A stretch of 64,000 nucleotides of DNA from Bifidobacterium pluvialisilvae (GTDB lineage Bacteria > Actinomycetota > Actinomycetes > Actinomycetales > Bifidobacteriaceae), in assembly GCF_019331695.1 (NCBI RefSeq), contig NZ_JAHBBI010000006.1, positions 124,001 through 188,000 of the forward strand. The letters run 5' to 3'. The notes below the pieces were generated by a model that was given only the letters and a program-made list of their open reading frames with translations, was not told the origin of the DNA and did not search any database. The number at the start of each line of letters is the position of its first letter. Positions within the stretch are counted from its first letter, which is position 1. The position numbers were made by a program, and so were the translations under genes. This document shows positions 33,407-61,965 of the stretch, in pieces.

Positions 33407-33424
33407 CATAACTTTTCCCTATAG
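33407..33424 (+). promoter_or_regulatory. CATAA-N7-CTATAG box at hemC promoter
   Basis: CATAA-CTTTTCC-CTATAG begins 2 bp after the alpha-glucosidase stop and 81 bp before hemC. The same box with the same 7-nt spacer recurs upstream of hemB, the MFS gene, the glycyl radical gene and (inverted) the aminotransferase gene. The ATA-N9-TAT dyad and T-N11-A pattern resemble LysR-type sites. TTATAG at 33456-33461 could be the -10 of hemC. Confidence 0.6.
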
Positions 33425-33487
33425 CCGCACGGCTCCTCGTCCATCGCCCAAATGTTATAGTGGGGCTCGCTTGGACGAGGAGCTTGC

Positions 33488-34399
33488 ATGACACACGTAT
33501 TTCGGGTCGGTACCCGCAAAAGCCGGTTGGCGCTGCGCCAGACCGAGCTCATCATCGACGCCCTGCGCGAGCGTCATCCCGAATGCGAGTTCATCGTCAG
33601 GCCGATCGTCACCCAGGGCGACCGCGACCTGAATTCCAGTCTGCAGAAGATCGGCGGCAAGGGCGTGTTCGTCAAGGAGATCGAACGCGAACTGCTTGAC
33701 GGCACCATCGATTTCGCCGCCCACAGCCTCAAGGACGTGCAGCCCGTGCTGCCGGAATCGTTGACGCTCGGCTGTTTTCCCAAGCGTGACTCCCCGTTCG
33801 ACTGTCTGATTTCCGCACGGCCGTTCTCCGGCATCGATGATTTGCCGCAGGGCGCCCGCATCGGCACGAACAGCCTGCGACGTCAGGCGCAGATTCTGCG
33901 GCTGCGGCCCGATATCGTCATCGTGCCGATTCGCGGCAATGTGGAGACCCGTCTGCACAAAATCGAAACCGAGCATCTTGACGGCGTTATTCTCGCCGAA
34001 GCCGGATTGAACCGTCTGCGCCCGGATCTGAGCGGATATCACCGTCTGTCGCTGCGCGATGTGATTCTGCCGGCGGCAGGCCAGGGCGCGATGACCGTGG
34101 AATGCCGAGCCGACGACGCCGATACACTGACGATGCTCGCCTCCGTCGACGATGATGCCACCCGCGCCGCCGTACATGCCGAACGCGAGTTCATGACCGC
34201 GCTCGGCGGAAGCTGCACGTTCCCCATCGGCGCATACGCACGTTACGAAAGCAATCAACTCACATTTGACGGCCTGGTGGCGTCCGCCGACGGCCGCCAT
34301 TGCTTCACCCGCCATCTCACGGGAACGGCGGCCGACCATCTCGGCAAGCAGGCCGCCGAATCACTGATCTCCGCCGGCGCCCTCACCTATTTACAGTAG
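33488..34399 (+). CDS. hemC: Hydroxymethylbilane synthase HemC
   Basis: 303 residues. RVGTRKSRLALRQTE at the start, KGVFVKEIERELLDGTIDFAAHSLKD, and the cofactor site LGGSCTFPIGA with Cys243 that holds the dipyrromethane. It joins four porphobilinogen units into hydroxymethylbilane. GAGGAG lies 7 nt upstream. Its neighbours are other genes of the uroporphyrinogen III to siroheme route. Confidence 0.97.
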   Translation: MTHVFRVGTRKSRLALRQTELIIDALRERHPECEFIVRPIVTQGDRDLNSSLQKIGGKGVFVKEIERELLDGTIDFAAHSLKDVQPVLPESLTLGCFPKRDSPFDCLISARPFSGIDDLPQGARIGTNSLRRQAQILRLRPDIVIVPIRGNVETRLHKIETEHLDGVILAEAGLNRLRPDLSGYHRLSLRDVILPAAGQGAMTVECRADDADTLTMLASVDDDATRAAVHAEREFMTALGGSCTFPIGAYARYESNQLTFDGLVASADGRHCFTRHLTGTAADHLGKQAAESLISAGALTYLQ

Positions 34400-34426
34400 C
34401 CATTTCACCCCGAACCATTCAGCCCC

Positions 34427-34476
34427 GGCTCCCCTCAAGATTGAGGGGAGCCGTCGGCAAAGCCGACTGAGGGGAG
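34427..34476 (+). repeat. Intergenic hairpin repeat (family A)
   Basis: GGCTCCCCTC-loop-GAGGGGAGCC followed by GTCGGCAAAGCCGAC and TGAGGGGA. Two adjacent hairpins with this layout recur at many gaps in the window. Here it sits between the convergent hemC and precorrin-2 dehydrogenase genes and may act as terminator. Confidence 0.8.
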
Positions 34477-34494
34477 TTGACACAGACTGCAAAA

Positions 34495-34995
34495 TCACAT
34501 CATTCCCCCGACCCATTCACACAACTCCTGCTTGAGGCGTCGCGCGCGGGCGGGGTCACGTCCTTTGGTGGAGACGGTGAGCAGGCAGTCGTCGGTTTCG
34601 ATTTTCGCAACGTTATAGAAATCCGACTGCGCGGGGTCGCCGACGTTGTTGGTCAACGGAACGCCGGCGGCCTGGGCGTCACGCACGACCTGTGCGTTCA
34701 CGTTGGCGTCGTCGGTGCACGCCAGCACGACGAACGGCACGTCGGCCGCCATCCCATCGCCGGCCGCGAGGATATCCCCAGACTTGTAGGACTTTTCCCG
34801 CCAATCCACACGCGACCGGTCGATGCGCGGATCCAATGCGGGACTGATGACGACCACCTTCGCGCCGCAATGCAGCAGCGTACCGACCTTGCGTGCGGCC
34901 ACGGCACCGCCGCCGACCACGAAGGCAAGCCGGCCGCGCATGTCGATGTTCACGGGGTAGGGATGCTCGGGAAGCCCCGATGCCACGCCGCTCAC
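34495..34995 (-). CDS. Precorrin-2 dehydrogenase (Met8/SirC-like), short form
   Basis: 166 residues. Rossmann motif VVGGGAVAARKV near residue 27; YPVNIDMRGR and TNNVGDPAQSDFYNVAKIE are conserved in the CysG N-terminal domain/Met8 family, as is STKGRDPARARRLK. It oxidises precorrin-2 to sirohydrochlorin with NAD+. It lacks the C-terminal helical extension of Met8, as in short bacterial SirC/YlnF proteins, so iron insertion probably relies on the SirB-like protein at 61273. The start overlaps the SUMT stop (ATGA). Confidence 0.93.
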   Translation of the reverse strand: MSGVASGLPEHPYPVNIDMRGRLAFVVGGGAVAARKVGTLLHCGAKVVVISPALDPRIDRSRVDWREKSYKSGDILAAGDGMAADVPFVVLACTDDANVNAQVVRDAQAAGVPLTNNVGDPAQSDFYNVAKIETDDCLLTVSTKGRDPARARRLKQELCEWVGGMM

Positions 34996-35780
34996 GACCG
35001 TCCCGACCCGGCCGAGTCCGATGACGAGGCCGCGTCGCCGCCGGCGGCCCCATCCTCCAGCAGCGAGGCCACGCCGCCGACCACGATCAACGCCGGAGCA
35101 CCCAATCCCGCCTTCTCAACGGTCGCCTCAATACCCTGCAAATCGGATTTCACGGCGCGCTGGTTCTCGCGAGTGGCCCACTGGATCACGGCGATCGGCG
35201 TATCGGCAGGCTTGCCGTTGGCCAGCAGCTCGCCGACGATGCGCCCCAGCGACTCCATGCCCATGAGGAACACGAGCGTGCCCTCCATATGCGCGATGTT
35301 GTTCCAGTCGAGCTCATGCCCCGCGCGCTTGCGATGGCCGGCGATCACATGGAAGCTCGACGCATAGTCGCGATGCGTCACCGGAATGCCCACCGACGCC
35401 GGTCCGGCGATGGCGCTGGTGATGCCCGGCACCACCTCCACCTGCACGCCGAGGCCGCGCAGATACTGCTGTTCCTCGCCGCCGCGGCCGAACACGAACG
35501 GGTCGCCGGACTTCAACCGGACCACACGCTTGCCGTCGAGCGCGAGCCGCGCCAGCAGGTCGTTGATTTCCCGCTGCTTGACGGGATGATGATGCGCGGA
35601 CTTGCCCACGTCGATGCGTTCGGCGTCCTCACGCGCGAATTCCAGCAGCTCCGGATTCACCAGCCGGTCGTACACGACGGCATCGGCCTCCTCCAGCCGA
35701 CGCTTGCCGTGCAGCGTCAACAGCTCCGGATCGCCCGGTCCGGCTCCCACCAACGACACGAGACCCTGCCGCTCACTCAT
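34992..35780 (-). CDS. cobA: Uroporphyrinogen-III C-methyltransferase (SUMT)
   Basis: 262 residues. Signature motifs LVGAGPGDPELLT, DAVVYDRLVNPELL, VRLKSGDPFVFGRGGEE, VPGITSAIAGPASVGIPVTHR and TLVFLMGM are intact. It uses two S-adenosylmethionine molecules to convert uroporphyrinogen III to precorrin-2, the entry step of siroheme synthesis. It diverges from hemB and overlaps the precorrin-2 dehydrogenase gene by 4 nt. The last 20 residues are a Ser/Gly/Ala tail. Confidence 0.97.
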   Translation of the reverse strand: MSERQGLVSLVGAGPGDPELLTLHGKRRLEEADAVVYDRLVNPELLEFAREDAERIDVGKSAHHHPVKQREINDLLARLALDGKRVVRLKSGDPFVFGRGGEEQQYLRGLGVQVEVVPGITSAIAGPASVGIPVTHRDYASSFHVIAGHRKRAGHELDWNNIAHMEGTLVFLMGMESLGRIVGELLANGKPADTPIAVIQWATRENQRAVKSDLQGIEATVEKAGLGAPALIVVGGVASLLEDGAAGGDAASSSDSAGSGRS

Positions 35781-35902
35781 GACATCTCCTTCCGCACCAT
35801 GACTCGACGTATCTCAACCATCTATTGTCAACCATGCCGGGCATGGCCTCCGCACACGCGCAACGCACCGCAACACCGCAAATCCGGCGATGTATCGCCC
35901 GT

Positions 35903-35920
35903 CATAACTAACCGATATAG
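35903..35920 (+). promoter_or_regulatory. CATAA-N7-ATATAG box between SUMT and hemB
   Basis: CATAA-CTAACCG-ATATAG, 78 bp upstream of hemB and about 120 bp from the divergent SUMT start. It is one of five boxes of the same type near sulfur and siroheme genes, so it may control both directions. Confidence 0.6.
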
Positions 35921-35997: not shown

Positions 35998-36981
35998 ATG
36001 TCATTGGTTTTCGACCGTCATCGTCGCCTGCGCACCAGCGCGGCGATGCGCGGTCTGGTACGCGAAACGACCGTCACCAAGAACGACCTCATCATGCCGG
36101 TGTTCGTCGACGCGACGATCGACGGCGTCGCGCCGATTCCCTCGATGCCCGGCATCAACCGCTACGGGCTCGATGCGCTGCCCGACGAGATCAGGGCCAT
36201 CGAGGATCTGGGCATCACGTCGGTCATCGTGTTCGGCATCCCCGACCATAAGGACGACGTCGGGTCCGACGCTTGGAGCGACGACGGCATCGTGCAATGC
36301 GGCATCCGCGTCATCAAGGCCGTCTGCCCCGGTCTGGTGGTGATCGCCGACGACTGCATGTGCGAATACACGTCCACCGGCCATTGCGGCATCGTGCGCG
36401 ACGGCGAGGTCGTCAACGACGAATCATTGGAATACATCGTTCGCATCGCCGTCAGTCAGGCGAAGGCGGGCGCCGATATCATCGCTCCGTCGAACGCCAT
36501 GGACGGTTATGTCGCGGCGATTCGTCAAGGCCTTGATAAGGCCGGATATATCAACGTTCCAATCATGTCGTATTCGGTTAAATATGCATCGAGTTTCTAC
36601 GGACCGTTCCGCGACGCCGCCGATGGGGCGCCGCAGTTCGGCGACCGCAGCGGCTACCAGATGGACCCCGCGAACCGGCTCGAGGCCATGCGCGAGGCGG
36701 CCAGCGACGAGCGCGAGGGCGCCGACTTCCTCATGGTCAAGCCGGCGATGGCGTTCCTCGACATCGTCCGCGACATACGCAACGCCAGCAATCTGCCGCT
36801 GGTCGCGTACAACGTCTCGGGCGAATACGCCATGATCAAGGCGGCCGCGGCGAACGGCTGGATAGACGAGGCACGCATCGTGAGGGAGACGCTGACCGGC
36901 ATCAAACGCGCCGGCGCCGACCTCATCATCACGTACTTCGCCAAGGACGTGGCCGCACGCATCGACCGCGATGAATGGTGA
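35998..36981 (+). CDS. hemB: 5-Aminolevulinate dehydratase (porphobilinogen synthase) HemB
   Basis: 327 residues. Catalytic Lys195 (YSVKYASSFYGPFRDA) and Lys248 (MVKPAMAFLD) are present. The segment DDCMCEYTSTGHCG has three Cys residues, marking the zinc-dependent type. It condenses two 5-aminolevulinate molecules to porphobilinogen. CAGGGGG precedes the ATG. No hemA or hemL is in the window, so the source of aminolevulinate is not visible here. hemD follows 78 bp downstream. Confidence 0.97.
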   Translation: MSLVFDRHRRLRTSAAMRGLVRETTVTKNDLIMPVFVDATIDGVAPIPSMPGINRYGLDALPDEIRAIEDLGITSVIVFGIPDHKDDVGSDAWSDDGIVQCGIRVIKAVCPGLVVIADDCMCEYTSTGHCGIVRDGEVVNDESLEYIVRIAVSQAKAGADIIAPSNAMDGYVAAIRQGLDKAGYINVPIMSYSVKYASSFYGPFRDAADGAPQFGDRSGYQMDPANRLEAMREAASDEREGADFLMVKPAMAFLDIVRDIRNASNLPLVAYNVSGEYAMIKAAAANGWIDEARIVRETLTGIKRAGADLIITYFAKDVAARIDRDEW

Positions 36982-37059: not shown

Positions 37060-37788
37060 ATGACCGTGCTGATCACGTATCCGCAGGACCATATCGGCGA
37101 AGCACTGCGTCGGCGGCTCGACGACGCCGCGCGCCCTGCCGGAGGCGTCGTGTACTGCCCGCTGCGCAGGCTGCAGGCCACCGTGCCGAGCGAATCCGAT
37201 CTGCGCGCGATCGCGAGCAGCGATTATCTGATCATCACGAGCAATTTCGCACTCACGCTGTATCTGGAGCGTTACCGGCATCTCAACTGGCTGGCCACGG
37301 TCGTGGTGCTGAGCCGCAAGATGGCGACGCAGGCCGAACGATACGGCCTGCCGCACGTATTGACGCCCGACGAGGAGAACCAGCGGGGACTGGCGCGTCT
37401 GCTGGCGACGCTGCCGCACGCCCGCATGGCGATGCTCGGCGGCGACCTGCGCGTGCCGCACGACCATATCCCCGAGGAAATCCCGCGGATTCGCATCTAC
37501 GAGAATATGTGGAACGATGAATTGGAGCAGTCGGCGATCGAGACGATTGCCGACGGTGCCGGAGCGGCCCATCCCATCGACCGCATTCTGGTGACGAGCC
37601 CGTCGTCGTATCGGCGGCTGCGGGCGATCATCGGAAAAATCCCTCATCGTTTCGCGGAGAATCCCACGTATTATGCGTTGGGCCCGAGTACGGCGGATAT
37701 CATCCGCGAAGACGGCGGAATCGTCATCGTGCCCGAATCGAATGATGTGCTGAGGCGGGCCGTGGAGCTCATTATCGGCAACCGCTAG
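37060..37788 (+). CDS. hemD: Uroporphyrinogen-III synthase HemD
   Basis: 242 residues. Sequence similarity in this family is low, but the two-lobed alpha/beta layout, LRAIASSDYLIITSNFAL in the first lobe and DRILVTSPSSYRRL followed by YYALGPSTADIIRED in the second, together with the position after hemB, fit HemD. It closes hydroxymethylbilane with inversion of ring D. AAGGAGG lies upstream of the ATG. Confidence 0.88.
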   Translation: MTVLITYPQDHIGEALRRRLDDAARPAGGVVYCPLRRLQATVPSESDLRAIASSDYLIITSNFALTLYLERYRHLNWLATVVVLSRKMATQAERYGLPHVLTPDEENQRGLARLLATLPHARMAMLGGDLRVPHDHIPEEIPRIRIYENMWNDELEQSAIETIADGAGAAHPIDRILVTSPSSYRRLRAIIGKIPHRFAENPTYYALGPSTADIIREDGGIVIVPESNDVLRRAVELIIGNR

Positions 37789-37870: not shown

Positions 37871-38206
37871 TTACAGCATTCCCCACGAACGCGCGTATTC
37901 CACGCGCACGGCGAAATCATCGGCGGTGAACCCCGCGTCGTACAGCTGCTGTTCCAGCTGCTCGAACGCGGCGCCGTCGCGTTCCGCGCGCAGCCCCTTC
38001 CACGAGAGCGCCAGCTGCCAGTCGCCGTCCTCGTCGGCAGGGCTCAATTCCCGTAATTTCGCCAATACGCGCTGCGCGATCTTCGCGCGGTCGATACGCT
38101 CCTGCAAGTCGTTCGTCGCGTCGTCGATGCTCAGTCCCGTGCTGCGGAACGGCCTGCCCGTAAATGGGATATCGACGATGACATGCCAGACGACCGGTAG
38201 ATTCAT
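37871..38206 (-). CDS. Conserved-looking hypothetical protein
   Basis: 111 residues, not recognised. It starts with a beta-like stretch (MNLPVVWHVIVDIPFTGRPF), has a charged helical middle (ATNDLQERIDRAKIAQRVLA) and an acidic C-terminal half. No membrane segment, signal peptide or known motif is seen. AGAG lies upstream of the ATG. It is flanked on both sides by long palindromes, so it is probably transcribed alone. Confidence 0.55.
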   Translation of the reverse strand: MNLPVVWHVIVDIPFTGRPFRSTGLSIDDATNDLQERIDRAKIAQRVLAKLRELSPADEDGDWQLALSWKGLRAERDGAAFEQLEQQLYDAGFTADDFAVRVEYARSWGML

Positions 38207-38308: not shown

Positions 38309-39787
38309 TCAGGCGACCGGAATATTGGCCCAGAAGCCGGGCAGCAGCACGGCCGAGAGCACGAATCCGAGGATGATGTTGACGACCGCGCCGATGCTGA
38401 ACGCGGCGATGGGCTTCCACCCGAGCGACGACAGCTGCTTGAAGCGAGTCGTCAGACCGATGGAGAGGAACGTGAACGTGAAGGCCCACGTACGCAGCTC
38501 CTTGACCGGCGTGATCAGGTCGCTTGTGATGCCCGCCGAGGCCGAGGCGCCGGCAGTGGCGATCACGATGGTGAGGAAGATCGACGCCACGAAGAAGCCG
38601 ATGACGAACTTCGGGAAGCGGTGCCAGATCTGCGCCACGTCGAGCTTCTGCTTCGGCAGCTTCGTCACGTCCTTGCCGGCGGCCTTGGCCTCGGCCACGC
38701 GGTCCTGACGGTCCCAGTAGGTGATGGCCACGAACGCGAGGATGAGGCACCACACGCCGATGAAGATGTCGCGGCCGACGACCTTCATGAGGGTGAACGC
38801 CGCGATGCCCTGATCTCCGAAGCTGGCGGCCGCGGTGATGCCGGCCGCGTCGGCGAATTCGGAGGTGCCGACCCAGGCGCCGGCCACGCCGTCCGCCAGA
38901 CCGAGCGCCTTGCCGAGGCCCGTAAGCAGGAAGATGGAGATGATGGCCCACACCACCACGATGGAGATCACCGCGGAGACGTGCTCCTTGCGGGTCTTGA
39001 CGGCGCTGCCCACGGCGATGCCGGCGGAGACGCCGCAGATGGAGCCGCCGGCGCCGAGCGTCGCGGCGAAGCGCTTGTCGAGGCCGAACAGACGGGTGGC
39101 GGCGAAGTAGATCACGAGGAACGTGGAGACGGCGATGAACGTTGCCTGCAGGAACGCGACCGGACCGGCCGAGATGATGGTGGTGAACGGCAGCGTGGCG
39201 CCGAGCAGCACGATGCCGACCTTCACATAAAGCTCGGTACGCAGGCTGCCGCCGAAGAATCCTTCGAGGTTGAGGATGTTGCCGAGCAGCAGGCCCACGA
39301 CGAGCGCGACCAGCGGCGCCTCGAGATTGTAGGAGTTGGCGAACTTCGAGGTGCTGAACACGTTGACGGCGAAGCTCAGCACGAACAGCGCCACGAATCC
39401 GCCGAGGAACGCCGGCACCCTGAGCCTGAGGAAGCGTGCGGCCACGCCGAACACGACGGCGAACAGCGCGAACAGCGCAAGGATGTTCGGCCAGCGCTGC
39501 GCGAGACCGGCCGCATGGGTGGTCGCGCCGTTCTTCACGACGTCGCCGCCCTCGAACAGGAACGACCAGGATCCCCAGCTGGGGATCTTCGCGGCGAAGA
39601 TGTTCAGCGAGCTGCCGGCCGCCCACAGCACGAACGCCAGCACGACGATGCCGAGGCCGATGAACACGGCCCACCAGTCCTCGCTGCCGAGGATCTTGTT
39701 GCCTTCGGCGGCCGCCGGAACGGTCTCCTTGGCCTTGGTCTTGGCCTTCGCCGCCGCAGCGGCGGAAGGCGTGATGGATGTAGTCAC
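38309..39787 (-). CDS. yeiH: YeiH/TauZ-family putative sulfate/sulfite exporter (UPF0324)
   Basis: 492 residues with about eleven membrane segments. Family landmarks: LYVKVGIVLLGATLPFTTI, LGAGGSICGVSAGIAVGSAV (the conserved GxxICGxSA loop), FTLMKVVGRD and IGLTTRFKQLSSLGWKPI. Members of this family (PF03601) are found with taurine and sulfonate degradation genes and are proposed to export sulfate or sulfite. A lysine/alanine-rich N-terminus of 30 residues precedes the first segment. GTG start with GGGGAGAG upstream. Here it would relieve excess sulfite from sulfonate cleavage; this role is inference. Confidence 0.85.
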   Translation of the reverse strand: MTTSITPSAAAAAKAKTKAKETVPAAAEGNKILGSEDWWAVFIGLGIVVLAFVLWAAGSSLNIFAAKIPSWGSWSFLFEGGDVVKNGATTHAAGLAQRWPNILALFALFAVVFGVAARFLRLRVPAFLGGFVALFVLSFAVNVFSTSKFANSYNLEAPLVALVVGLLLGNILNLEGFFGGSLRTELYVKVGIVLLGATLPFTTIISAGPVAFLQATFIAVSTFLVIYFAATRLFGLDKRFAATLGAGGSICGVSAGIAVGSAVKTRKEHVSAVISIVVVWAIISIFLLTGLGKALGLADGVAGAWVGTSEFADAAGITAAASFGDQGIAAFTLMKVVGRDIFIGVWCLILAFVAITYWDRQDRVAEAKAAGKDVTKLPKQKLDVAQIWHRFPKFVIGFFVASIFLTIVIATAGASASAGITSDLITPVKELRTWAFTFTFLSIGLTTRFKQLSSLGWKPIAAFSIGAVVNIILGFVLSAVLLPGFWANIPVA

Positions 39788-40091: not shown

Positions 40092-40871
40092 CTACTCCTG
40101 CGCGAAGAACTCCTGGTATATCGAGTCCTTGGCGCGGTTGAACCGTTCGCCGACGCGAGTGCGCGGCGTTCCCAGGTCGACGTGCTCCACGCGCTTGATC
40201 TCGCCGGGATGTGGCTTCATCACCACGACGGTCTCGCCCAGATACACGGCCTCGTCGATGTCGTGCGTCACGATCACCATCGTGATGCCTTCGGACTGCC
40301 AGATGCGCAGCAACTGGTCCTGAAGCTTGATTTTCGTAATCGCGTCGAGCGCGCCGAACGGCTCGTCGAGCAGCAGGACCTTCGGCCGGTTGGCGAGCGC
40401 GCGGGCGATGGCCACGCGCTGCGACATGCCGCCGGAGAGCTGCTTGGGCAGCGCATCCTCGAATCCGTTCAATCCGACGAGATCGATGTTCTCCTGGATC
40501 AGCTCGTCGTTGTGCTTCTCCGAGTCGGGCAGCGCGAACCGGATGTTCTCGCGCACGGAGAACCATGGCAGCAGGCGATGGTCCTGGAAGACGAAGCCCT
40601 TGTCGCGGCCGGGGCCGGGAATCGGCCGGCCGTCCATCAGGGCCTCGCCGTCGTATTCGGTGTCGAGGCCGCCGATGATGCGCAGCAGCGTGGATTTTCC
40701 GCAGCCGGATGGTCCGATGATGGAGGTGAATCCTCCGCGCGGCAGCGAGATCGAAACGTCGTGCAACGCCTCGACCGGCCCGTGTTCCGAGGGGAACACC
40801 TTGGTCAGATGTCTGATGTCGATGATGTTGTCGGCGTTGCCGCCGTCGATGTTGTCGTTGTTGTCGCTCAT
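40092..40871 (-). CDS. ABC transporter ATPase, nitrate/sulfonate/taurine type (SsuB/TauB-like)
   Basis: 259 residues. Walker A GPSGCGKSTLLR, signature LSGGMSQRVAIARAL, Walker B VLLLDEPFGALDAIT and H-loop VTHDIDEAVYLG give the NrtD/SsuB/TauB subfamily. It drives import through the permease and binding protein encoded just upstream. The substrate is not set by the ATPase; the neighbouring sulfur genes suggest a sulfonate. Confidence 0.9.
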   Translation of the reverse strand: MSDNNDNIDGGNADNIIDIRHLTKVFPSEHGPVEALHDVSISLPRGGFTSIIGPSGCGKSTLLRIIGGLDTEYDGEALMDGRPIPGPGRDKGFVFQDHRLLPWFSVRENIRFALPDSEKHNDELIQENIDLVGLNGFEDALPKQLSGGMSQRVAIARALANRPKVLLLDEPFGALDAITKIKLQDQLLRIWQSEGITMVIVTHDIDEAVYLGETVVVMKPHPGEIKRVEHVDLGTPRTRVGERFNRAKDSIYQEFFAQE

Positions 40872-43192: not shown

Positions 43193-43210
43193 CATAAGCA
43201 GCCGCTATAG
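43193..43210 (+). promoter_or_regulatory. CATAA-N7-CTATAG box in the ABC/MFS divergent region
   Basis: CATAA-GCAGCCG-CTATAG. It overlaps the palindrome CCGCTATAGCGG (43202-43213). It lies 133 bp upstream of the MFS gene and about 220 bp from the divergent binding-protein gene, in a 371-bp gap (42972-43342) without other recognisable features except AT-rich promoter-like sequence at 43090-43200. Confidence 0.6.
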
Positions 43211-45019: not shown

Positions 45020-45020
45020 T

Positions 45021-47160: not shown

Positions 47161-47251
47161 GAGGGGGAAGGCTCGCTCAGGATGACATAAGTCCCGCTAT
47201 AACCCAGGATGATATAAGTCCCCCACTCAAATCCCACAAACCCCAATAATC

Positions 47252-47288
47252 CCAACGATTTATGAGGCATCATAAGCAACTCCTATAC
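47252..47288 (+). promoter_or_regulatory. Control sites of the glycyl radical enzyme gene
   Basis: CATAA-GCAACTC-CTATAC at 47271-47288 is one of five boxes of this type. Just upstream, TTATGA-GGCA-TCATAA forms a 6-bp dyad (47260-47275), and CCAACGATT at 47252-47260 equals one arm of the palindromes at the sulfite reductase promoter. The start codon of the enzyme is 115 bp further. Confidence 0.6.
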
Positions 47289-54326: not shown

Positions 54327-54365
54327 AGTTATCCCCCTAGTTATTCCTACATTCCACATACCCCT

Positions 54366-54570
54366 GGCTCCCTCTGACGAGGGAGCTGTCAGGCGACGCC
54401 TGACTGAGGGAGAGACGCGAGCCACGTCCACGCATTCCACCTCGGCTCCCTCTGACGAGGGAGCTGGCCGCCGAAGGCGGTCTGAGGGAGAGAAGACACG
54501 TTGCCTCGCCAGACCGTTCACCACCCCTCAGCCCGACATGCGTCGGCCAGCTCCCCTGACAAGGGGAGCC
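54366..54570. repeat. Three repeat family A copies between tauC- and tauA-like genes
   Basis: Copies at 54366-54410 and 54444-54489 (plus orientation) and 54526-54570 (inverted) fill nearly all of the gap 54327-54600 inside the operon. In other TauABC operons the genes are close together, so the repeats seem to have accumulated here. Confidence 0.85.
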
Positions 54571-54600: not shown

Positions 54601-55494
54601 CTACTCCTTGCCGACCCACGGCGTGAGCACGCGGATGACGAGCTGGATGATGCCGTCGAGCACCAGCGCGGCCACGCCGATCACGAGGATGCACGCGATG
54701 GTCAGCGGCGTGTTCATCTCGGTGCCGGAAAGGTACGCCAACGCGCCGATGCCGGGGATGCCGTTGTTGAGTTCGGCGGCCACGACGGTCGTCCATGCGA
54801 ATCCGACGGCCAGACGGATGCCGTTCAACACCGACGGCAGTGCGCTCGGGAACATGACCAGGGCCACGAGCTGGGCCCGGTTGGCGCCGAGCGACAACGC
54901 CGAGTTGATGCGGTCGCGGTTCACGCTTTTCAGTCCGTCGATGGTGGCGAGCACGATCGGCGGGAACGCGGCGAGGAACAGCAGCCAGATCTTCGTGGTG
55001 TCGCCGATGCCGAACCAGACGATGAGCAGGCCGATGTAGCCGAGCGGCGGCAGCGCACGAACGAAGTTGATGTACGGCATGATGAGCCGGTTCAGCCAGC
55101 GCACGCCGGACAGCACGAATCCCAACACCACGCCGACGACGATGGACAACGCAAGTCCCACGCCGATGCGTTCGAGGCTCATGAGCAGATGCTGCCAGAG
55201 GAAGTACTGCTGTACACCGCAGACGATGCGCGTGGAGCCCGCCGCAATGGGATTGCACGTGTTGGCGCGCACGAACGCGTTCCACACGGCGCCCGGGCTG
55301 GGCAGATACAGCGGGTTGACGAGCTTCGCCGCCGTCACGGCCCACCATGCCGCCACGAATACCAGCAGCGATACCAATCCCTGCGCCTTGCCGACCGGCA
55401 ATTTTCTCCGCGCGACGGCATTGTTTCCAGGTTCCGGCGCAATGGAGCTGATACGCTCCTTCACCTTGCCGGCAGGTATGCTTACTGCGGTCAT
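54601..55494 (-). CDS. Taurine/sulfonate ABC permease (TauC/SsuC-like)
   Basis: 297 residues from ATG at 55494, with AAGGGGACG upstream. Six membrane segments; YLPSPGAVWNAF and the EAA loop (NSALSLGANRAQLVALVMFP, then GIRLAVGFAWTTVVAAELN) are typical of TauC/SsuC. A 30-residue insertion with two cysteines (NTCNPIAAGSTRIVCGVQQ) lies after the first segment. It is first in the operon, followed by the repeat-filled gap and the binding protein and ATPase genes. Confidence 0.9.
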   Translation of the reverse strand: MTAVSIPAGKVKERISSIAPEPGNNAVARRKLPVGKAQGLVSLLVFVAAWWAVTAAKLVNPLYLPSPGAVWNAFVRANTCNPIAAGSTRIVCGVQQYFLWQHLLMSLERIGVGLALSIVVGVVLGFVLSGVRWLNRLIMPYINFVRALPPLGYIGLLIVWFGIGDTTKIWLLFLAAFPPIVLATIDGLKSVNRDRINSALSLGANRAQLVALVMFPSALPSVLNGIRLAVGFAWTTVVAAELNNGIPGIGALAYLSGTEMNTPLTIACILVIGVAALVLDGIIQLVIRVLTPWVGKE

Positions 55495-55706
55495 AGTCGT
55501 TCGTCCCCTTCTGCGTTTCCGATTGCGTCCCGCCGTCGTTCCGCCGACGTCCCGTATTCGGCGACCCATGATGTTGCATCACGAGGAGGCGAGCAGTCGG
55601 AATCCCCATGACATCCTGAAATCTTCAGCTTCCCCAACCAACCGGAAAGCTTGCTCCCCACATTAATCCCGCCGCATGGGCCCGAGGCCCGATATGGCGA
55701 AAACGC

Positions 55707-55724
55707 TTATAGGCTTTCGCTATG
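55707..55724 (-). promoter_or_regulatory. CATAG-N7-CTATAA box (inverted) at the aminotransferase promoter
   Basis: On the minus strand it reads CATAG-CGAAAGC-CTATAA. It lies 143 bp upstream of the aminotransferase and about 210 bp from the divergent permease gene, in a 373-bp gap. AATCGTTG half-sites like those of the sulfite reductase palindromes occur at 55736 and AATCGTTA at 55837. Confidence 0.55.
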
Positions 55725-55867
55725 ACGTATTCCCAATCGTTGATTTCCCTAGTAAAACACAGGTCGTTGTCGTCTTTTTCCGTAAATCGTTTTCTGCGTA
55801 TACTGCCAATCAGCCTACGACAATCGTAGTGTTTGCAATCGTTATTTCATACGAGGGGGATGTCCAT

Positions 55868-57214
55868 ATGAGTAGTCTGTCCGGCGAGGAAGTCGCGCGC
55901 CTGCATGAGGAATACGTGCTGCAACCATGGGCCAAGCAAGGTGCCCCGGCCACGCCGGTCAAGCGCGCGGAAGGCATCTACTTCTGGGATTATGACGGCA
56001 AACGCTATGCCGATATGAGTTCGCAGATGGTGTGCTCGAACCTTGGCCATCAGAACCAGGTGGTCGTCGACGCCATCAAGAAGCAGGCCGACGAACTGTG
56101 CTATATCGCGCCGAGCTTCGCGGTCGAACCGCGTGGCAGGCTGGCCAAGTTGCTGGTCGACATCGCCGGCGCCGAGCATTTCCAGCGGGTGTTCTTCACG
56201 CTGGGTGGTTCGGATTCCAATGAGAACGCCATCGAAATCGCGCGGTTCTATACGGGACGTCCGAAGATTCTCTCCTGCTACCGGTCGTACCACGGTTCCA
56301 CGCTGGGTTCGGCGTTCGCCAGCGGCGACTGGCGTCGTTTCGCCTATGAGACGGGCGGCGCCGCCCCGTCGTTCGTGCATTTTCTCAATCCGAGCGTGTA
56401 TGAGGACGGTTTCGACCGTACGCCGGAGGATGAGGCCCGTTGCACGCGGCAGTATCTTCGCCAGCTGGAGCAGCAGATTGACTATGAGGGCCCGGAGACG
56501 ATCGCCGCAGTGCTCATGGAGTCGATCGTGGGCGCGAACGGCGTGCTGATTCCGCCGAAGGGCTATATGGAGGGCGTTGCGGAACTGTGCCGCAAGCATG
56601 GCATCCTGCTGATCTGCGACGAGGTGATGGCCGGGTTCGCGCGTTCGGGGAAGATGTTCACGTGGCAGAACTTCGATCTCGTGCCCGATCTCATCACGTT
56701 CGCCAAGGGTGTGACCGGCGCGATGGTCCCGCTCGGCGGCGTGATTGCCAGCAAGGAAATCTCGAAGTTCTTCGAAAGCCATCCGTTGCCCTGCGGACTG
56801 ACGTATTCGGGGCACCCGCTGGCGTGCGCGGCCGGCGTCGCCGCCACGCAGTACTACCTCGACCACGACATCTGCGCCCACGTGAAGCAGCTCGAAGGCG
56901 TGCTCAAGCCGCGTCTTGAGGAGTTCGCCGAGCGTCACGCCTGCGTGGGCGAGGCCCGCTGCATCGGCCTGTTCGCCGCGCTGACGCTGGTGAAGGACAA
57001 GACGACCCGTGAGCTGTTGGCCCCGTATCACACCGCGAACGGCCGCATGCCCGCCATCTTCGCCGAACTGAAGAAGCGTGGCTTCTACACGTTCGGCCGC
57101 GAGTCGAACCTCAACGTCTGCCCGCCGCTCATCATCACCGAGGACGAGCTCAACGAGCAGCTCGATATCCTCGACGAGGTCCTCACCTGGGCCGACCACG
57201 AATTCTGCGAATAG
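55868..57214 (+). CDS. toa: Class III aminotransferase, taurine:2-oxoglutarate (or pyruvate) type
   Basis: 448 residues from ATG at 55868 (GAGGGGG upstream). PLP fold type I class III: GGSDSNENAIEIARFYTGRP, SYHGSTLGSAFASGD, LICDEVMAGFARSGKMF and DLITFAKGVTGAMVPLGGV with Lys280 as the PLP lysine. The sequence is close in form to the taurine aminotransferase described from Bifidobacterium kashiwanohense (recalled, not compared here). It would convert taurine to sulfoacetaldehyde. The divergent tau-type importer supports this. A sulfoacetaldehyde reductase needed to reach isethionate is not in the window. Confidence 0.82.
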   Translation: MSSLSGEEVARLHEEYVLQPWAKQGAPATPVKRAEGIYFWDYDGKRYADMSSQMVCSNLGHQNQVVVDAIKKQADELCYIAPSFAVEPRGRLAKLLVDIAGAEHFQRVFFTLGGSDSNENAIEIARFYTGRPKILSCYRSYHGSTLGSAFASGDWRRFAYETGGAAPSFVHFLNPSVYEDGFDRTPEDEARCTRQYLRQLEQQIDYEGPETIAAVLMESIVGANGVLIPPKGYMEGVAELCRKHGILLICDEVMAGFARSGKMFTWQNFDLVPDLITFAKGVTGAMVPLGGVIASKEISKFFESHPLPCGLTYSGHPLACAAGVAATQYYLDHDICAHVKQLEGVLKPRLEEFAERHACVGEARCIGLFAALTLVKDKTTRELLAPYHTANGRMPAIFAELKKRGFYTFGRESNLNVCPPLIITEDELNEQLDILDEVLTWADHEFCE

Positions 57215-57493: not shown

Positions 57494-58495
57494 TCAGCTG
57501 TGCAGCGGCTGCTTGCGGTCGGGATACAGTTCCTCCGAAAGGTGGTTCACCGCGCGCGGCACCTCGCCGAAGCCCGCGGAGATGAGCTTCACCTTACCCG
57601 GATAGTTCACCGCGTCGCCCACGCCGTAGATGCCCGGCACCGACGTCTCCAGGAACTCGTTCACCTGCAGGTCGCCGCGCTTGACCGGCAGTCCCCAGTC
57701 GCGCAGCAGATGGTTGTCGGACGTGAACCCGTAGTTCACCAGCAGGGCGTCGACGTGCAGCGACGGCTGGTCGTCGCCCTTCACCTGCGCCAGGTCGACG
57801 CGCAATCCCTCGTTCTCGTCCACCACGTCCACGAACTTGTACGGGGTCAGGATCTCCACGGAGGATTCCTTGAGCTGTGCGACGCTGGACTCCAGCGCAC
57901 GGAAGTTGTCGCGTCGGTGGATGAGCGTCACGTGGGCCGCGATCTTCTCGAGTTCGAGAGCCCAGTCGATGGCCGCGTCGCCGCCGCCGGCCACGACCAC
58001 GTTCTTGCCTTCGAAGTCGGCCAGCCTCTTGACGAAGTAGAACACCTTGTTGCCGTCGAGTCCGTCTCGGTCGTAGTCGATGGCGAGCGGTCGGGGTGCG
58101 AACGCGCCGCTGCCGATGGCCACGATCACGCTGCGCGTGTGCACGGAACGGGTTTTCGTCGTCAATACGAACGTGCCGTCGTCGAGCCGTTCCAGTCCCT
58201 GCACCTCTTCGTTCACGTGTACGCCGATGCGGTCGCCGAATGAGTCGATCTGCCGCTGCAGGTTGGCGATGAGTTCGGCGCCGGTGCCGGAGACGAAGCC
58301 GGCGATGTCGTGGATCGGCTTCTCCGGATACAATGCCGCCACCTGGCCGCCCAGCTGCGGCAGACTGTCGATGAGCTGCACGCTGAGATTGCGCATGGCC
58401 GAGTAGAACGCCGTGAACATGCCGACCGGGCCGCCGCCGATCACCACGACGTCGGTCGTTCCACCGTCCGCGGTCACGTTATCGGTATCGCTCAT
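57494..58495 (-). CDS. Ferredoxin/flavodoxin-NADP+ reductase (YumC type)
   Basis: 333 residues from ATG at 58495 (GGGGG upstream); an in-frame start at 58519 is possible. FAD motif VVVIGGGPVGMFTAFYSAM, SLPQLGGQVAALYPEKPIHD (typical of TrxR-like FNR, no CxxC), NADP motif VVVAGGGDAAIDWALEL, and YGVGDAVNYPGKVKLISAGFGE. It transfers electrons from NADPH to flavodoxin or ferredoxin. It diverges from the sulfite reductase-flavodoxin pair across a region with two palindromes, giving the chain NADPH - this enzyme - flavodoxin - sulfite reductase. Confidence 0.92.
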   Translation of the reverse strand: MSDTDNVTADGGTTDVVVIGGGPVGMFTAFYSAMRNLSVQLIDSLPQLGGQVAALYPEKPIHDIAGFVSGTGAELIANLQRQIDSFGDRIGVHVNEEVQGLERLDDGTFVLTTKTRSVHTRSVIVAIGSGAFAPRPLAIDYDRDGLDGNKVFYFVKRLADFEGKNVVVAGGGDAAIDWALELEKIAAHVTLIHRRDNFRALESSVAQLKESSVEILTPYKFVDVVDENEGLRVDLAQVKGDDQPSLHVDALLVNYGFTSDNHLLRDWGLPVKRGDLQVNEFLETSVPGIYGVGDAVNYPGKVKLISAGFGEVPRAVNHLSEELYPDRKQPLHS

Positions 58496-58591
58496 AATCG
58501 AAAATCCCCCATGAATCATAAGAAAACGGTTGACGATACGCGTCAGTATACGGATTCATCCCCGTCCGCGAAACGATGCCACATTCCCGCG

Positions 58592-58700
58592 AATCGTTGG
58601 AATTCCAACGATTGATAACGACTCACAAATAGAACCGTCACCGCATTCGACGCCCACGTAACACGACCGACGTCATATAATCGTTGCAATTCCAACGATT
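58592..58700. promoter_or_regulatory. Two 22-bp palindromic operators between FNR and sulfite reductase genes
   Basis: AATCGTTGG and CCAACGATT arms around AATT form a perfect palindrome at 58592-58613. A second with one mismatch is at 58679-58700. Centres are 87 bp apart. A cooperative dimeric repressor controlling both directions is likely. Single arms also occur near islA (47252) and the aminotransferase (55736). Confidence 0.75.
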
Positions 58701-58848: not shown

Positions 58849-60480
58849 ATGAGTTACACCGCAACCTGGGCGGATCAGAAACTGAACGCCAACGAGATCA
58901 GCAAGCTCAAGGAGGACGGCCTTGACGTGTTCAAGGACCTTCCCGAACTGGTGAAGAAGCCGTTCTCGGAAGTCGATAAAAGCTACTTCATGTACTTCAA
59001 GTACGCCGGTCTTACGGTGCAGAAGCCGCAGGACGAGGGCTACTTCATGATGCGCATCAAGATTCCCGGTGGCCGCATCAACATCAAGCAGGCCGACCAT
59101 ATCGCATGGATCGGCGAGCATTACGGCCATGGCGTCATCGACCTGACGACCCGTCAGGCGGTGCAATATCATTGGATTCCGTTCGCCGAGCTGGTCGATA
59201 TCTTCGCCGGCATCGAGAACGTGGGTCTGACGACGGTCGGCGCCGAGGGCGATATCACGCGTAACGTCATCGACAACACGCTGTCGGGCATCGATCCGAA
59301 CGAACTGTTCGACACCCGTCAGACCGTGCTTGACGTGTACCGTCGCTTCCAGGGCAACTACGACTATTCCAACCTGCCGCGCAAGTTCAAAATCTCCATC
59401 AGCAGCAACCTGTACAACGCCGCCGACGCCGAGATCAACGACCTGGCGTTTGTGCCGGCGACGAAGCGCATCGGCCGCCATACGGTCAAGGGCTTCAACG
59501 TGAAGGTGGGCGGCGGCCTTGGCATGAAGCCGTATCTGGCGCAGCAGCTCAACATCTTCGTGACGCCGGATCGTGTGGCCGACGTGGCCGAGGTGGTCTG
59601 CCGCATCTACCGTGACTACGGCTATCGTCGCAGCCGCTCGAAGGCCCGCCTCAAGTTCCTGGTCAAGGATTGGGGTGCGGAGAAGTTCGAGGACAAGGTG
59701 CGCGAGTACATGCCCGACCTGCAGACCAAGGGCCGCGACCGGACCAAGGGTTGGAACAACGGCAACGCGCTCGGCGTGCACCGCCAGCTGCAGAAGGACT
59801 TCTATTATGTCGGCGTCTCCGTGCCGTCGGGCCGTATTTCGGCCGATGATTTCAAGGCGCTGGTGGACGTGGCCCGTGAGTACGGCAAGGATGAGATCCG
59901 TTTCGACCACTGCCAGAACATGATCATCCCGTGGATTCCCGCGGACAGGATCAAGGAGGTCGAGGCGCTGCCGATCTTCGAGAAGTTCTCGCTGCACCCG
60001 CATCTCATCGCCGACTACGGCAACACGTGCACGGGCGCCGAATACTGCAATCTCGCCAACACGCTGACGAAGTCCATCTTCAAGCCGCTGGTCGAGGAGC
60101 TTGACAGCCGCTTCTCGTTCGACAGCCCGTTGAACGTGACGATGACCGGCTGCGGCAACAACTGCGCGCACCGTTCCATCGCCGACATCGGCGTGGAGGG
60201 CGTGCACGCCCGTACGCCCGACCGTCAGCATGTGCCGGGCTTCAAGCTGTCGGTGGGCGGCAGCCTGGTGAACGGCGGCCATTTCAACGAGCAGTTGAAG
60301 GGCACGTTCTCCCAGGCTCAGCTGGCCGATTCCATTTCGGCGCTGCTGGCCGACTACCGCGACAACCATGAGGGGTCCGAGACGTTCTACGAGTACTACT
60401 CGCGTACCGGCACGGACCACTTCCAGGAAGTTTTGAACAATTACACCGCAACCATTCCCGCAACGGAGGTACTGAGATAA
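58849..60480 (+). CDS. sir: Siroheme-dependent sulfite (or nitrite) reductase, ferredoxin type
   Basis: 543 residues from ATG at 58849. Two-fold nitrite/sulfite reductase layout; siroheme/4Fe-4S ligands Cys394-x5-Cys400 (TCTGAEYC) and Cys435-x3-Cys439 (GCGNNCAHR). Arg/Lys-rich siroheme-binding segments such as TRQAVQYHW and DHCQNMIIPW are present. It makes six-electron reductions; the presence of sulfonate uptake, sulfite-lyase and siroheme genes argues for sulfite to sulfide. Nitrite cannot be excluded by sequence reading alone. The flavodoxin start overlaps its stop by one base (TAATG). Confidence 0.9.
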   Translation: MSYTATWADQKLNANEISKLKEDGLDVFKDLPELVKKPFSEVDKSYFMYFKYAGLTVQKPQDEGYFMMRIKIPGGRINIKQADHIAWIGEHYGHGVIDLTTRQAVQYHWIPFAELVDIFAGIENVGLTTVGAEGDITRNVIDNTLSGIDPNELFDTRQTVLDVYRRFQGNYDYSNLPRKFKISISSNLYNAADAEINDLAFVPATKRIGRHTVKGFNVKVGGGLGMKPYLAQQLNIFVTPDRVADVAEVVCRIYRDYGYRRSRSKARLKFLVKDWGAEKFEDKVREYMPDLQTKGRDRTKGWNNGNALGVHRQLQKDFYYVGVSVPSGRISADDFKALVDVAREYGKDEIRFDHCQNMIIPWIPADRIKEVEALPIFEKFSLHPHLIADYGNTCTGAEYCNLANTLTKSIFKPLVEELDSRFSFDSPLNVTMTGCGNNCAHRSIADIGVEGVHARTPDRQHVPGFKLSVGGSLVNGGHFNEQLKGTFSQAQLADSISALLADYRDNHEGSETFYEYYSRTGTDHFQEVLNNYTATIPATEVLR

Positions 60481-60920
60481 TGAGCACCAAGATCATCTTC
60501 ACCAGCGCGACTGGCAACACCAAGGAGGCCGTCGAGCTTCTGGAGGAAGCCCTTCAGGACCTCGATCAGGACGTTGAGGTGTTCGATGCCGAGGACGGCG
60601 TGGAAGTCGACGAGTTCTTCGATGACGCCGACAACTACGTCGTGGCCAGCTGGAGCGACGGCGACAACGGCGAGGTCCCCGGCGGCATCGTGGACTTCTA
60701 CGACGACCTTGACGGCTACGACCTGTCCGGCAAGAAGGTCGCGGTGCTGGGCACCGGCGACACCAGCTACCCACACTTCTGCGCGGCGGTGGACATCTTC
60801 GAGAAGCTCCTCAAGGAGGACGGCGCCGAACTCGTGGCCGAGCCGCTGAAGATCGAGCTCGCTCCCGATGACGACGCCATCGAGAAGATCAAGGCCCTCG
60901 CCAAGACCCTCGCCGACTGA
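60480..60920 (+). CDS. fld: Flavodoxin
   Basis: 146 residues. FMN phosphate loop TSATGNTKEAVELL at residues 8-21, the loop VASWSDGDNGEVPGGIVDFY and the GTGDTSYPHFCAAVDIFEKLL motif give a short-chain flavodoxin. It is strongly acidic. Translation is coupled to the reductase. It most likely carries electrons from the divergent NADPH reductase to the siroheme enzyme. Confidence 0.93.
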   Translation: MSTKIIFTSATGNTKEAVELLEEALQDLDQDVEVFDAEDGVEVDEFFDDADNYVVASWSDGDNGEVPGGIVDFYDDLDGYDLSGKKVAVLGTGDTSYPHFCAAVDIFEKLLKEDGAELVAEPLKIELAPDDDAIEKIKALAKTLAD

Positions 60921-60971
60921 GCATCTACTCTCTGTCCGCTGGGATGGGCGATATGCGACGCGCCTCTTCTT

Positions 60972-61018
60972 GGCTCCCCTCTTGGAGGGGAGCTGTCGGC
61001 ACAGCCGACTGAGGGGAG
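60972..61018 (+). repeat. Repeat family A copy after flavodoxin
   Basis: GGCTCCCCTCTTGGAGGGGAGC followed by GTCGGCACAGCCGAC and TGAGGGGAGG, 50 bp after the flavodoxin stop; it can act as a terminator. Confidence 0.8.
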
Positions 61019-61104
61019 GCCACCCACCCCAACCCTAAGTACGAGAGCCGGCGGTCATGACATCCTCGTGACTGCCGGCGTTTTAAGTACTCCCTAGTGC
61101 CGAT

Positions 61105-61214
61105 GGGGCATATGGTGCCCGACCGTAAGCTAGTGAAGGCGTCTGCTAGGCTTGCCAAGCAGACGTCGGAACGGCGGCCGAACGGCCTTGAGTGTGTCGG
61201 GCACCATATGTCCC
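61105..61214 (+). promoter_or_regulatory. Structured leader-like element upstream of sirB (copy 1)
   Basis: GGGGCATATGGTGCCCGAC (61105-61123) pairs with its complement at 61196-61214 over 19 bp including one G-T pair. Inside are a 7-bp hairpin CGTCTGC / GCAGACG (61140-61146 / 61159-61165) with loop TAGGCTTGCCAA and a small GGCC-GAAC-GGCC hairpin followed by TTGAGTGTGTCG. The element ends 59 nt before the SirB-like start. Compared with the copy at 63894, two base pairs of the hairpin show compensatory change. Confidence 0.65.
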
Positions 61215-61272
61215 ACCGGCGCCCTCGCACCACCCAAACGCGTCATTATTCACCAGTCCAAAGGAGCACCCC

Positions 61273-61965
61273 ATGACCACCGGCTACCTCTACGTCCTGC
61301 ATGGACGCCGCGGCAAGATTCCCGAGTCGAATCTCGAACTGCTGGGCGATTTCATCAAGGACGCCGGCCAGAACGGTCGTATCGCGTTCCTAGAGGGCGA
61401 GGAGCAGACGTTGGAGGATGGCATCCGTGTGTTGCAGGCCGGAAACGACCATCTGGTCATCGTGCCGGTGCTGTTGTATTCGGCGACGCATATGCGCTGG
61501 GACATTCCGCAGCGTACGCGTGAGGTCATCGATCCGAATGTATCGCTTGAGGTGACGGAGCCGTTGGCCACGACGAAGGCCGTGCATGATTATCTGCTGG
61601 ATTTGCTGGGCAGGGCGGTGAAGGAGCATCCGGAGCGCAAGGTGCTGCTGGTGGCGCATGGCACGCCGCATTTCCCGGAACCGTTCGAGCAGCTGACCTC
61701 GCTGGCGGAGGATATCGAACGCCGTATCGGTGTGCCGATCATCTGCACGAATCATATCGGTTCGCCGCGTATCGAGGATACGTTGGCGCATCCGGAGGCG
61801 CAGGGTCCGTTGATTGTGGAGCGTCTGTTCCTGACGGATGGTCGTTTGGCGAATAAGATCAAGGCCCGTGTGGAGGCGTTGAACGACGATACGGTGTTCC
61901 TGCCGACGATGGAGGATGATCCGGTCATCGTCGACGCCATCAAGGAGCGTCTCGCCGAACTATAG
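61273..61965 (+). CDS. sirB: Sirohydrochlorin ferrochelatase-like protein (SirB/CbiX family)
   Basis: 230 residues. The N-terminal lobe has YLYVLHGRRGKIPESNLEL with His10 and VPVLLYSATHMRWDIP; the second lobe has VLLVAHGTPHFPEP and FLTDGRLANKIK. These are the two His-bearing lobes of the CbiX/SirB chelatase family. It would insert Fe2+ into sirohydrochlorin, the last step of siroheme synthesis, consistent with a short precorrin-2 dehydrogenase lacking a chelatase part. AAAGGAG lies before the ATG. A structured element is in its leader. Confidence 0.87.
   Translation: MTTGYLYVLHGRRGKIPESNLELLGDFIKDAGQNGRIAFLEGEEQTLEDGIRVLQAGNDHLVIVPVLLYSATHMRWDIPQRTREVIDPNVSLEVTEPLATTKAVHDYLLDLLGRAVKEHPERKVLLVAHGTPHFPEPFEQLTSLAEDIERRIGVPIICTNHIGSPRIEDTLAHPEAQGPLIVERLFLTDGRLANKIKARVEALNDDTVFLPTMEDDPVIVDAIKERLAEL

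Follow-up and report, generated by a model that had tools for sequence, protein, structure and literature searches.

A candidate sulfonate-to-sulfide gene cluster in Bifidobacterium pluvialisilvae

Could a fermenting bifidobacterium turn the sulfur of taurine or isethionate into sulfide? This question is raised by a 64,000-nucleotide stretch of the Bifidobacterium pluvialisilvae genome (the window; G000:C18:124001-188000, in a genome of 2.66 Mb), in which a set of sulfonate and siroheme genes at 33407..61965 forms open reading frames that match the expected families or solved structures. An initial annotation, made from the sequence alone, had named within these 29 kb sulfonate importers, a taurine aminotransferase, a sulfite-lyase with its activase, a siroheme sulfite reductase with its electron carriers, a YeiH-type exporter and the genes leading to siroheme, and had read them as a pathway from sulfonates to sulfide. 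All the named genes were found where it had placed them. We consider it likely that the cluster encodes an anaerobic sulfonate-to-sulfide route. Family-level gene identity, synteny, co-occurrence and a shared promoter box come from the sequence; every reaction, the substrates of the transporters and the purpose of the route are what we infer.

The glycyl radical enzyme

The genes run in the order hemC, sirC and sumT (-), hemB, hemD, a 111-amino-acid frame with a YeiH-family gene (-), ssuBCA (-), an MFS transporter gene with an amidohydrolase gene, islA, islB, hsp20, tauBAC (-), toa, fnr (-), sir, fld and cbiX, where (-) denotes the reverse strand. The predicted isethionate sulfite-lyase is the product of islA (47404..49884, +), an IslA-like glycyl radical enzyme whose best solved relatives were 7kq3, IslA of Bilophila (1194 bits), 5ymr, IseG of Desulfovibrio (1178 bits), and 6lon (1100 bits), which we take to be HpsG. 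The protein is 63.2% identical to 7kq3, 64.4% to 5ymr and 59.2% to 6lon; among characterised enzymes it is nearer to 7kq3 and 5ymr, both isethionate lyases according to their papers, than to HpsG. The catalytic Cys and Glu and the C-terminal Gly are present (C468, E470, G805; PF02901, 597 bits). Of the 13 IslA residues that we inspected, among them those mutated in PMC8473560, 12 match in the window protein. R189, Q193, W374, C468, E470, R678, V680, F682 and G805 are conserved in all seven aligned bifidobacterial sequences, i.e., the window protein and six relatives, with the B. callitrichos protein, split in two frames, excluded from the alignment. A radical SAM activase gene, islB, adjoins islA (50294..51340, +; TIGR02494, 307 bits, cut-off 174; PF04055), and its product scores 366 bits with the HpsH model, below the cut-off of 430. 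The annotation of the pair as an IslA-like lyase with its activase thus held.

Compared with its counterparts in B. callimiconis and B. tissieri, islA combines 96% protein identity with only 73-74% identity at fourfold sites, which indicates that the gene is under purifying selection and in use. Its protein identity to the relatives (93-98%) is higher than that of sir (82-98%), and the fourfold-site identity of sir in the same two comparisons is 61-64%. Because the fourfold sites differ less between islA and sir, constraint would explain much of the higher protein identity of islA, and the gene may or may not have arrived by a recent horizontal transfer.

Two records of relatives show irregularities around islA. 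In B. callitrichos DSM 23973 (L094:3768-8014), islA and the adjoining monooxygenase gene are each split over two frames, through either sequencing error or decay. In the B. saimiriisciurei record (L087 and L088, compared with 28273-60917), protein identity is 100% from the PF00375 symporter to the MFS transporter and 85-99% from the amidohydrolase on; this step may be a mosaic boundary near islA or reflect mixed sequence, as the stated contamination is 9%.

Siroheme reductase, siroheme genes and putative sulfonate importers

The candidate for sulfite reduction is sir (58849..60480, +), a siroheme sulfite (or nitrite) reductase of NirA type that carries the NIR_SIR and ferredoxin-like half domains (PF01077, PF03460) twice each. 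Its best solved matches are nitrite reductases, the top one being 3b0l, which we take to be the tobacco enzyme; 1zj8, presumably M. tuberculosis NirA and, as we assume, a sulfite-acting enzyme, is also among its solved relatives. Where 3b0l has an Asn, presumably Asn226 of tobacco nitrite reductase, the window reductase has Lys, as does the entry set 3vlx. The Asn226-to-Lys change reportedly gives the tobacco enzyme sulfite reductase activity; the term N226K was not found among the literature matches listed. Downstream of sir lies fld (60480..60920, +), for a flavodoxin that scored just below the cut-off (TIGR01753, 115 bits; cut-off 123), and upstream lies fnr (57494..58519, -; PF07992), for a thioredoxin-reductase-like flavoprotein and probable NADPH:flavodoxin reductase. 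The role of the fnr product as NADPH reductase is inferred from its position; no NCBIfam cut-off was passed among its best 25 of 51 families. The gene stands beside sir in all 10 genomes with sir, and at a contig end in G100.

The YeiH-family membrane protein (38309..39787, -) passed PF03601 (157 bits, cut-off 24.5) and scored 76 bits with TIGR00698, below the cut-off of 232.6; the export named by the initial annotation is a possible role. Salmonella YeiH gives sulfite resistance that is distinct from sulfur assimilation (PMC12880088), and the window protein may export sulfite.

Six genes could supply the reductase with siroheme, and all remain open alongside sir in the window genome: hemB, 5-aminolevulinate dehydratase (35998..36981, +; PF00490, 476 bits); hemC, hydroxymethylbilane synthase (33488..34399, +; PF01379); hemD, uroporphyrinogen-III synthase (37060..37788, +; PF02602, 54 bits, cut-off 27.5); sumT, uroporphyrinogen-III C-methyltransferase (34992..35780, -; TIGR01469, 312 bits, cut-off 185); a sirC-like gene with a precorrin-2 dehydrogenase domain (34495..34995, -; TIGR01470, 72 bits, cut-off 62.3; PF13241); and a cbiX-like sirohydrochlorin ferrochelatase candidate (61276..61965, +; PF01903, 57 bits, cut-off 22). 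The set had been described as starting at porphobilinogen; as HemB is present, it starts one step earlier, at 5-aminolevulinate.

The 111-amino-acid frame between hemD and the YeiH-family gene, orf111 (37871..38206, -), was assigned to the sulfite/siroheme module by its co-occurrence with Sir. It has no Pfam match, and a fold search of the PDB gave no match at E <= 0.001. Its predicted fold is beta-alpha-beta-beta-alpha-beta (mean predicted local distance difference test score, pLDDT, 83), 48 columns are invariant among 10 sequences, and in the 10 Sir genomes the frame lies beside hemD or yeiH.

Two importers flank islA. The ssu-like set comprises a sulfonate-binding protein (ssuA, 41892..42971, -; TIGR01728, 189 bits, cut-off 163.5), a permease (ssuC, 40947..41885, -), identified by its place in ssuABC and by orthologues in relatives, and an ATPase (ssuB, 40092..40871, -), for which none of the best 25 of 160 families exceeded its cut-off. 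The tau-like set comprises a taurine-binding protein of uncertain start (tauA, 53232..54524, -), an ATPase (tauB, 52399..53235, -), whose orthologues stand beside tauA/tauC in relatives, and a permease (tauC, 54601..55569, -), with orthologues in relatives; the latter two were identified as open frames. The proposed SsuABC/TauABC types stand for SsuA; for TauA, TIGR01729 is the best model, at 201 bits against a cut-off of 304.

As annotated, toa (55865..57214, +; PF00202) encodes a clear relative of the solved taurine:2-oxoglutarate aminotransferase: 6jix, which we take to be the B. kashiwanohense enzyme, scored 732 bits and the next solved match 234. Among 189 Bifidobacteriaceae genomes, the sample used for all co-occurrence counts below, Toa was found in 24 at E <= 1e-120. 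A close form (83-100%) occurs in eight genomes, exactly the eight with IslA; 16 genomes hold only a 62-68% form, and G004 and G005 hold the close form together with a 70% form. TauF, detected with a reference sequence that matches BkTauF (6jko) at 624 bits, adjoins all 18 Toa of the second kind and two of the eight close-form Toa, those of B. callimiconis and B. tissieri. TauF was not found in the window genome, where four of five Fe-ADH matches align to it at 26-33% identity. Because TauF is absent, the taurine branch has a gap in this genome, and taurine-derived sulfide would therefore need another sulfoacetaldehyde reductase. Two frames considered for this step were set aside: for the Fe-ADH at L007, beside a GabT-like frame, the sole solved match at E <= 1e-40 was Cvir-Hbd2, not TauF, and for that at L004 methanol and alcohol dehydrogenases matched first, with TauF lower (152 bits). 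The isethionate branch, in contrast, is complete on paper, and would need no TauF step if SsuABC imports isethionate.

Promoter boxes and the two modules

The initial annotation had claimed shared promoter boxes. The pattern CATA[AG]-N7/8-TATA[AG], with one further base allowed, matched five times in the 64 kb, always in promoter regions of the cluster: before hemC (33407..33424, +; CATAR-N8-TATAR, 28.2 bits with the position weight matrix described below), between sumT and hemB (35903..35920, +; 29.8 bits), between ssuA and the MFS gene (43193..43210, +; 25.6 bits), before islA (47186..47202, +; a regular-expression match with a spacer one base shorter) and between tauC and toa (55707..55724, -; 26.4 bits). 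Across 30 random sequences matched to the window in dinucleotide composition, the pattern occurred 0.07 times on average and once at most. Clearly, the shared boxes exceed chance. As the pattern was derived from the window itself, its conservation in relatives is the stronger test. With a weight matrix built from 23 distinct sites of relatives, four window sites scored 25.6-29.8 bits, compared with maxima of 8-15 bits in 15 random sequences, and no site in the remaining 125 kb of the contig exceeded 14.2 bits. At islA the best 27-base match to the matrix, a weak second box at 47271..47288 (+), reached only 13.5 bits, within the range of the random maxima.

The toa box is present in all eight IslA genomes (that of the window included), as is the islA box, with best scores of 13.5 to 28.5 bits. 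The hemC and hemB boxes are present in all seven genomes of the window genus with the core, that is, in 6/6 with IslA and in G008, whose core lacks IslA. In G038, boxes of at least 19 bits occur at toa and islA only, the fetched stretches of G090 and G094 contain none of at least 11.5 bits, and none of the 18 TauF-type Toa loci has one. The relatives that carry boxes are close, and the sites are thus not independent. The boxes precede hemC, hemB, islA and tauC/toa, and are lacking at sir, fnr, yeiH and cbiX.

We set aside the box at 43193 as a promoter of ssuA: it recurs in G005, ssuA of G004, G007 and G038 has no box upstream, and in G002 the MFS gene is preceded by a copy of 19 bits. It may belong to the MFS gene. 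Because of the missing box before ssuA in those three genomes, SsuABC is tied to isethionate by position alone. Two palindromes between fnr and sir (58592-58613 and 58679-58700) were considered as a pathway operator, AATCGTTG..CAACGATT, and this was rejected, since its degenerate form matches also in two genomes without Sir. The operator AAnCGTTGnnATTnCAACGnTT, with one mismatch allowed, occurs at 24 forward places in the genome (at 23237-23258 of the window besides 58592-58700) and in all 12 genomes searched, with no match in the backward control; it is the site type of a general regulator, not a pathway-specific one.

A further gene possibly belongs to the same regulon. It encodes a DmoA/NtaA-family flavin mononucleotide (FMN) monooxygenase (11072..12478, -; TIGR03860, 538 bits, cut-off 280), whose best solved match is the dimethyl-sulfide monooxygenase 6ak1. 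In the window it lies about 35 kb from islA and has a weak box at 12629-12646 (13.8 bits, within the range of the random maxima). In two relatives the gene stands beside islA, in B. callitrichos with boxes of 23.6 and 19.4 bits between the two genes and in a metagenome-assembled genome (MAG) with a 28.5-bit copy.

The co-occurrence of islA, sir and the siroheme genes, which the initial annotation had proposed as a check, was indeed found. Sir occurs in 10 of the 189 genomes, and HemC and orf111 in exactly the same 10; IslA occurs in eight. Seven of these also carry Sir; in the remaining one, a MAG of 78% completeness, the contig breaks off within fnr, beside the expected place of sir. As the species are related, the counts do not represent independent events. 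When named genomes were scanned with a single query sequence, which reaches close relatives only, seven relatives of the glycyl radical enzyme were returned (93-98% identical), all of them from Bifidobacterium: B. saimiriisciurei, B. catulorum, B. primatium, B. callimiconis, B. tissieri, B. callitrichos and one MAG. From their names, we assume that several of these species are isolates from New World monkeys.

The yeiH-fnr interval holds the sulfonate genes, on a single contig, in 6/8 IslA genomes; in G002 they are spread over three contigs, and in G100 the region is cut. G090 and G094 have neither IslA nor a close Toa, and their yeiH-fnr gap contains no gene of the set (G094) or one other frame (G090). 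In G008 the gap holds genes for a binding-protein/permease fusion, an ATPase and an arylsulfotransferase-like protein, and similar frames lie beside fnr in B. callitrichos (L091:7771-12355 and L093:8844-13658; the fusion and the arylsulfotransferase were identified by Pfam in L091 only). The core occurs without IslA and a close Toa in G008, G090 and G094. The synteny suggests two modules: a siroheme/sulfite-reduction core, and a set of sulfonate genes located between yeiH and fnr.

Other genes surround or interrupt the cluster. The MFS transporter and Amidohydro_3 hydrolase genes that adjoin islA (43343-46691) may own the box at 43193, and related amidohydrolases are found near islA in 5/7 other IslA genomes, in varying orientation. 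Just upstream of the cluster (12730-29583), frames named by eye include nickel/cobalt-type uptake genes, urease genes and a urea-type ABC importer.

The proposed route, its alternatives and its meaning

In the route that we propose, SsuABC would import isethionate or a similar alkyl sulfonate, and TauABC taurine, which Toa would transaminate to sulfoacetaldehyde, yielding glutamate. Sulfoacetaldehyde would be reduced to isethionate by TauF where it is present, and in the window genome by some other dehydrogenase. IslA, activated by IslB, would cleave isethionate into sulfite and acetaldehyde, and the NirA-type siroheme reductase would reduce sulfite to sulfide with electrons passing from NADPH to the flavoprotein and on to flavodoxin, while YeiH would probably let out surplus sulfite. 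HemBCD, SumT, SirC and CbiX would build siroheme from imported 5-aminolevulinate. The sulfide would serve as a sulfur source, and the reductions possibly as an electron sink too. A wider version, which we offer tentatively and rate a little short of an even chance, is that some bifidobacteria, as a group, draw on taurine and isethionate of the host both for sulfur and as electron acceptors, and make sulfide. A separate regulon would combine an oxygen-free step, radical C-S cleavage, with an oxygen-using one, the DmoA-like FMN monooxygenase, and with siroheme made from salvaged 5-aminolevulinate, and the 111-amino-acid protein would be a new siroheme- or sulfite-handling factor.

Several findings weigh against the sulfonate-to-sulfide route, among them the missing TauF and the missing box before ssuA described above, and others bear on alternative readings of its enzymes. 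The glycyl radical enzyme might be a 2,3-dihydroxypropane-1-sulfonate (DHPS) sulfolyase (HpsG) or a related C3-sulfonate enzyme, with the sulfite coming from breakdown products of sulfoquinovose. The two proteins share 59% identity; I192 of IslA is Leu in the window enzyme, as in HpsG; of 102 sites at which both isethionate lyases have one letter, HpsG another and the window protein either of these, 27 show the HpsG letter; and HpsG is the name of the NCBIfam model whose cut-off the protein exceeds (1457 bits). However, the model does not discriminate the known IslA (1499 bits) from HpsG (1508 bits), and we dropped its name as evidence of identity. HpsG too has R189, Q193, R678, W374 and V680, but Ile in place of F682, and F188, S191, H196 and F682 of the window protein all match IslA/IseG. 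Moreover, I192 is not an essential residue, since the I192A variant of Bilophila IslA stays active (PMC8473560). As the identity to both isethionate lyases is higher and the neighbours are C2-sulfonate genes (tau, toa), we regard HpsG activity as unlikely. It is likewise improbable, in our judgement, that the reductase serves the conversion of nitrite to ammonia and stands among sulfonate genes incidentally. Its best profiles, NirA and ferredoxin-nitrite reductase (scores below the cut-offs), agree with its best solved matches in pointing to nitrite reductase, whereas the Lys in place of Asn points to sulfite. In addition, Sir accompanies IslA in all but the one incomplete MAG, and the same core contains a YeiH-family gene, the Salmonella member of which is the one that gives sulfite resistance (PMC12880088).

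A further alternative accepts these enzyme functions and gives them another purpose: the core of siroheme reductase and YeiH would detoxify sulfite, the sulfonate module would serve nitrogen and energy, and sulfide would be waste. We see in it a real possibility, although we lean away from it. In its favour, three of the 10 Sir genomes have the core without IslA and a close Toa, Toa yields glutamate, and the YeiH-based sulfite resistance of Salmonella is separate from sulfur assimilation (PMC12880088). Serine acetyltransferase, CysE, had no match over the curated cut-off in the window genome, and since weak matches were found in 14 of 15 genomes, the search says little beyond this; it makes the E. 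coli route from sulfide to cysteine, one of the fates that had been proposed, doubtful. In B. longum, methionine is reportedly formed with sulfide by direct sulfurylation (PMC11540073). The absence of boxes at sir, fnr, yeiH and cbiX counts against the proposed route. Against the detoxification reading, the sulfonate genes have their box in common with hemC and hemB in all six window-genus genomes with IslA (it is kept in G008), and the DmoA-like enzyme, which may be under the same control, suggests a role in sulfur supply. Finally, the siroheme pathway could be a non-working relic for want of 5-aminolevulinate, which we hold to be very improbable. HemA was found in none of the 13 genomes searched (controls positive in 10 of 14; HemL and 5-aminolevulinate synthase were not searched for), and HemB, present in the seven window-genus genomes with Sir, is missing from the three other Sir genomes, G038, G090 and G094. 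Because HemA is absent, siroheme could not be made from glutamate by the HemA route, and uptake of 5-aminolevulinate is therefore likely. Against a relic, all six later genes are open in the window genome, cells without HemA that live on external 5-aminolevulinate are known (PMC6461909), and a family-5 binding protein is encoded between sirC and hemC in G038, with similar frames, judged by eye, in G090 and G094.

Taken together, these results partly support the initial interpretation: an isethionate lyase and a sulfite reductase appear to be encoded together, while the taurine branch lacks TauF here. Each part resembles a known system. In Bilophila wadsworthia, IslA and IslB convert isethionate into sulfite and acetaldehyde and sulfite reduction follows; this organism uses a dissimilatory sulfite reductase, Dsr (PMC11540073), and SarD (PMC6616044). 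The window cluster, in contrast, belongs to a fermenting member of the Actinomycetota. It combines the gene for a single-chain NirA-type siroheme reductase, next to that for flavodoxin, with genes for ABC importers and for siroheme synthesis, and it does not imply respiration. With M. tuberculosis NirA and plant nitrite reductases the window reductase shares the single chain with duplicated NIR_SIR domains, and it differs from the plant enzymes by its Lys for Asn and by a genetic context of sulfite. The putative pathway of taurine nitrogen assimilation in B. kashiwanohense (PMC6616044) has TauABC and Toa as well, together with TauF, which is proposed to reduce sulfoacetaldehyde to isethionate for export. 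B. callimiconis and B. tissieri have the TauF gene in the tauC-toa interval. In B. kashiwanohense isethionate is thus a waste product, while the window cluster adds IslA and Sir and lacks TauF. Bacteria that salvage tetrapyrrole precursors likewise keep the later genes and lack HemA; those described are cobamide makers, mostly Firmicutes (PMC6461909), and the product in the window genome would be siroheme.

The trait had been proposed as new. A taurine import and transamination cluster in a bifidobacterium is already published (PMC6616044), whereas a 2024 paper describes bifidobacteria as cysteine-dependent and lacking sulfite reductase (PMC11540073). The 10 of 189 family genomes with Sir contradict this at the gene level. 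In a literature search limited to open-licence PMC papers, we did not find the combination of sulfite release and reduction in bifidobacteria. The parts are individually known; what appears new is their combination in a fermenting lineage of Actinomycetota, with siroheme genes and a shared box.

As named isolates carry islA, e.g., B. tissieri DSM 100201, the question is directly testable, as are the need for external 5-aminolevulinate and the part of the 111-amino-acid protein. Should the pathway work, some members of a probiotic genus could make sulfide from bile-derived sulfonates although they respire neither sulfate nor sulfite, and surveys of gut H2S genes limited to dsrAB would miss such bifidobacteria.

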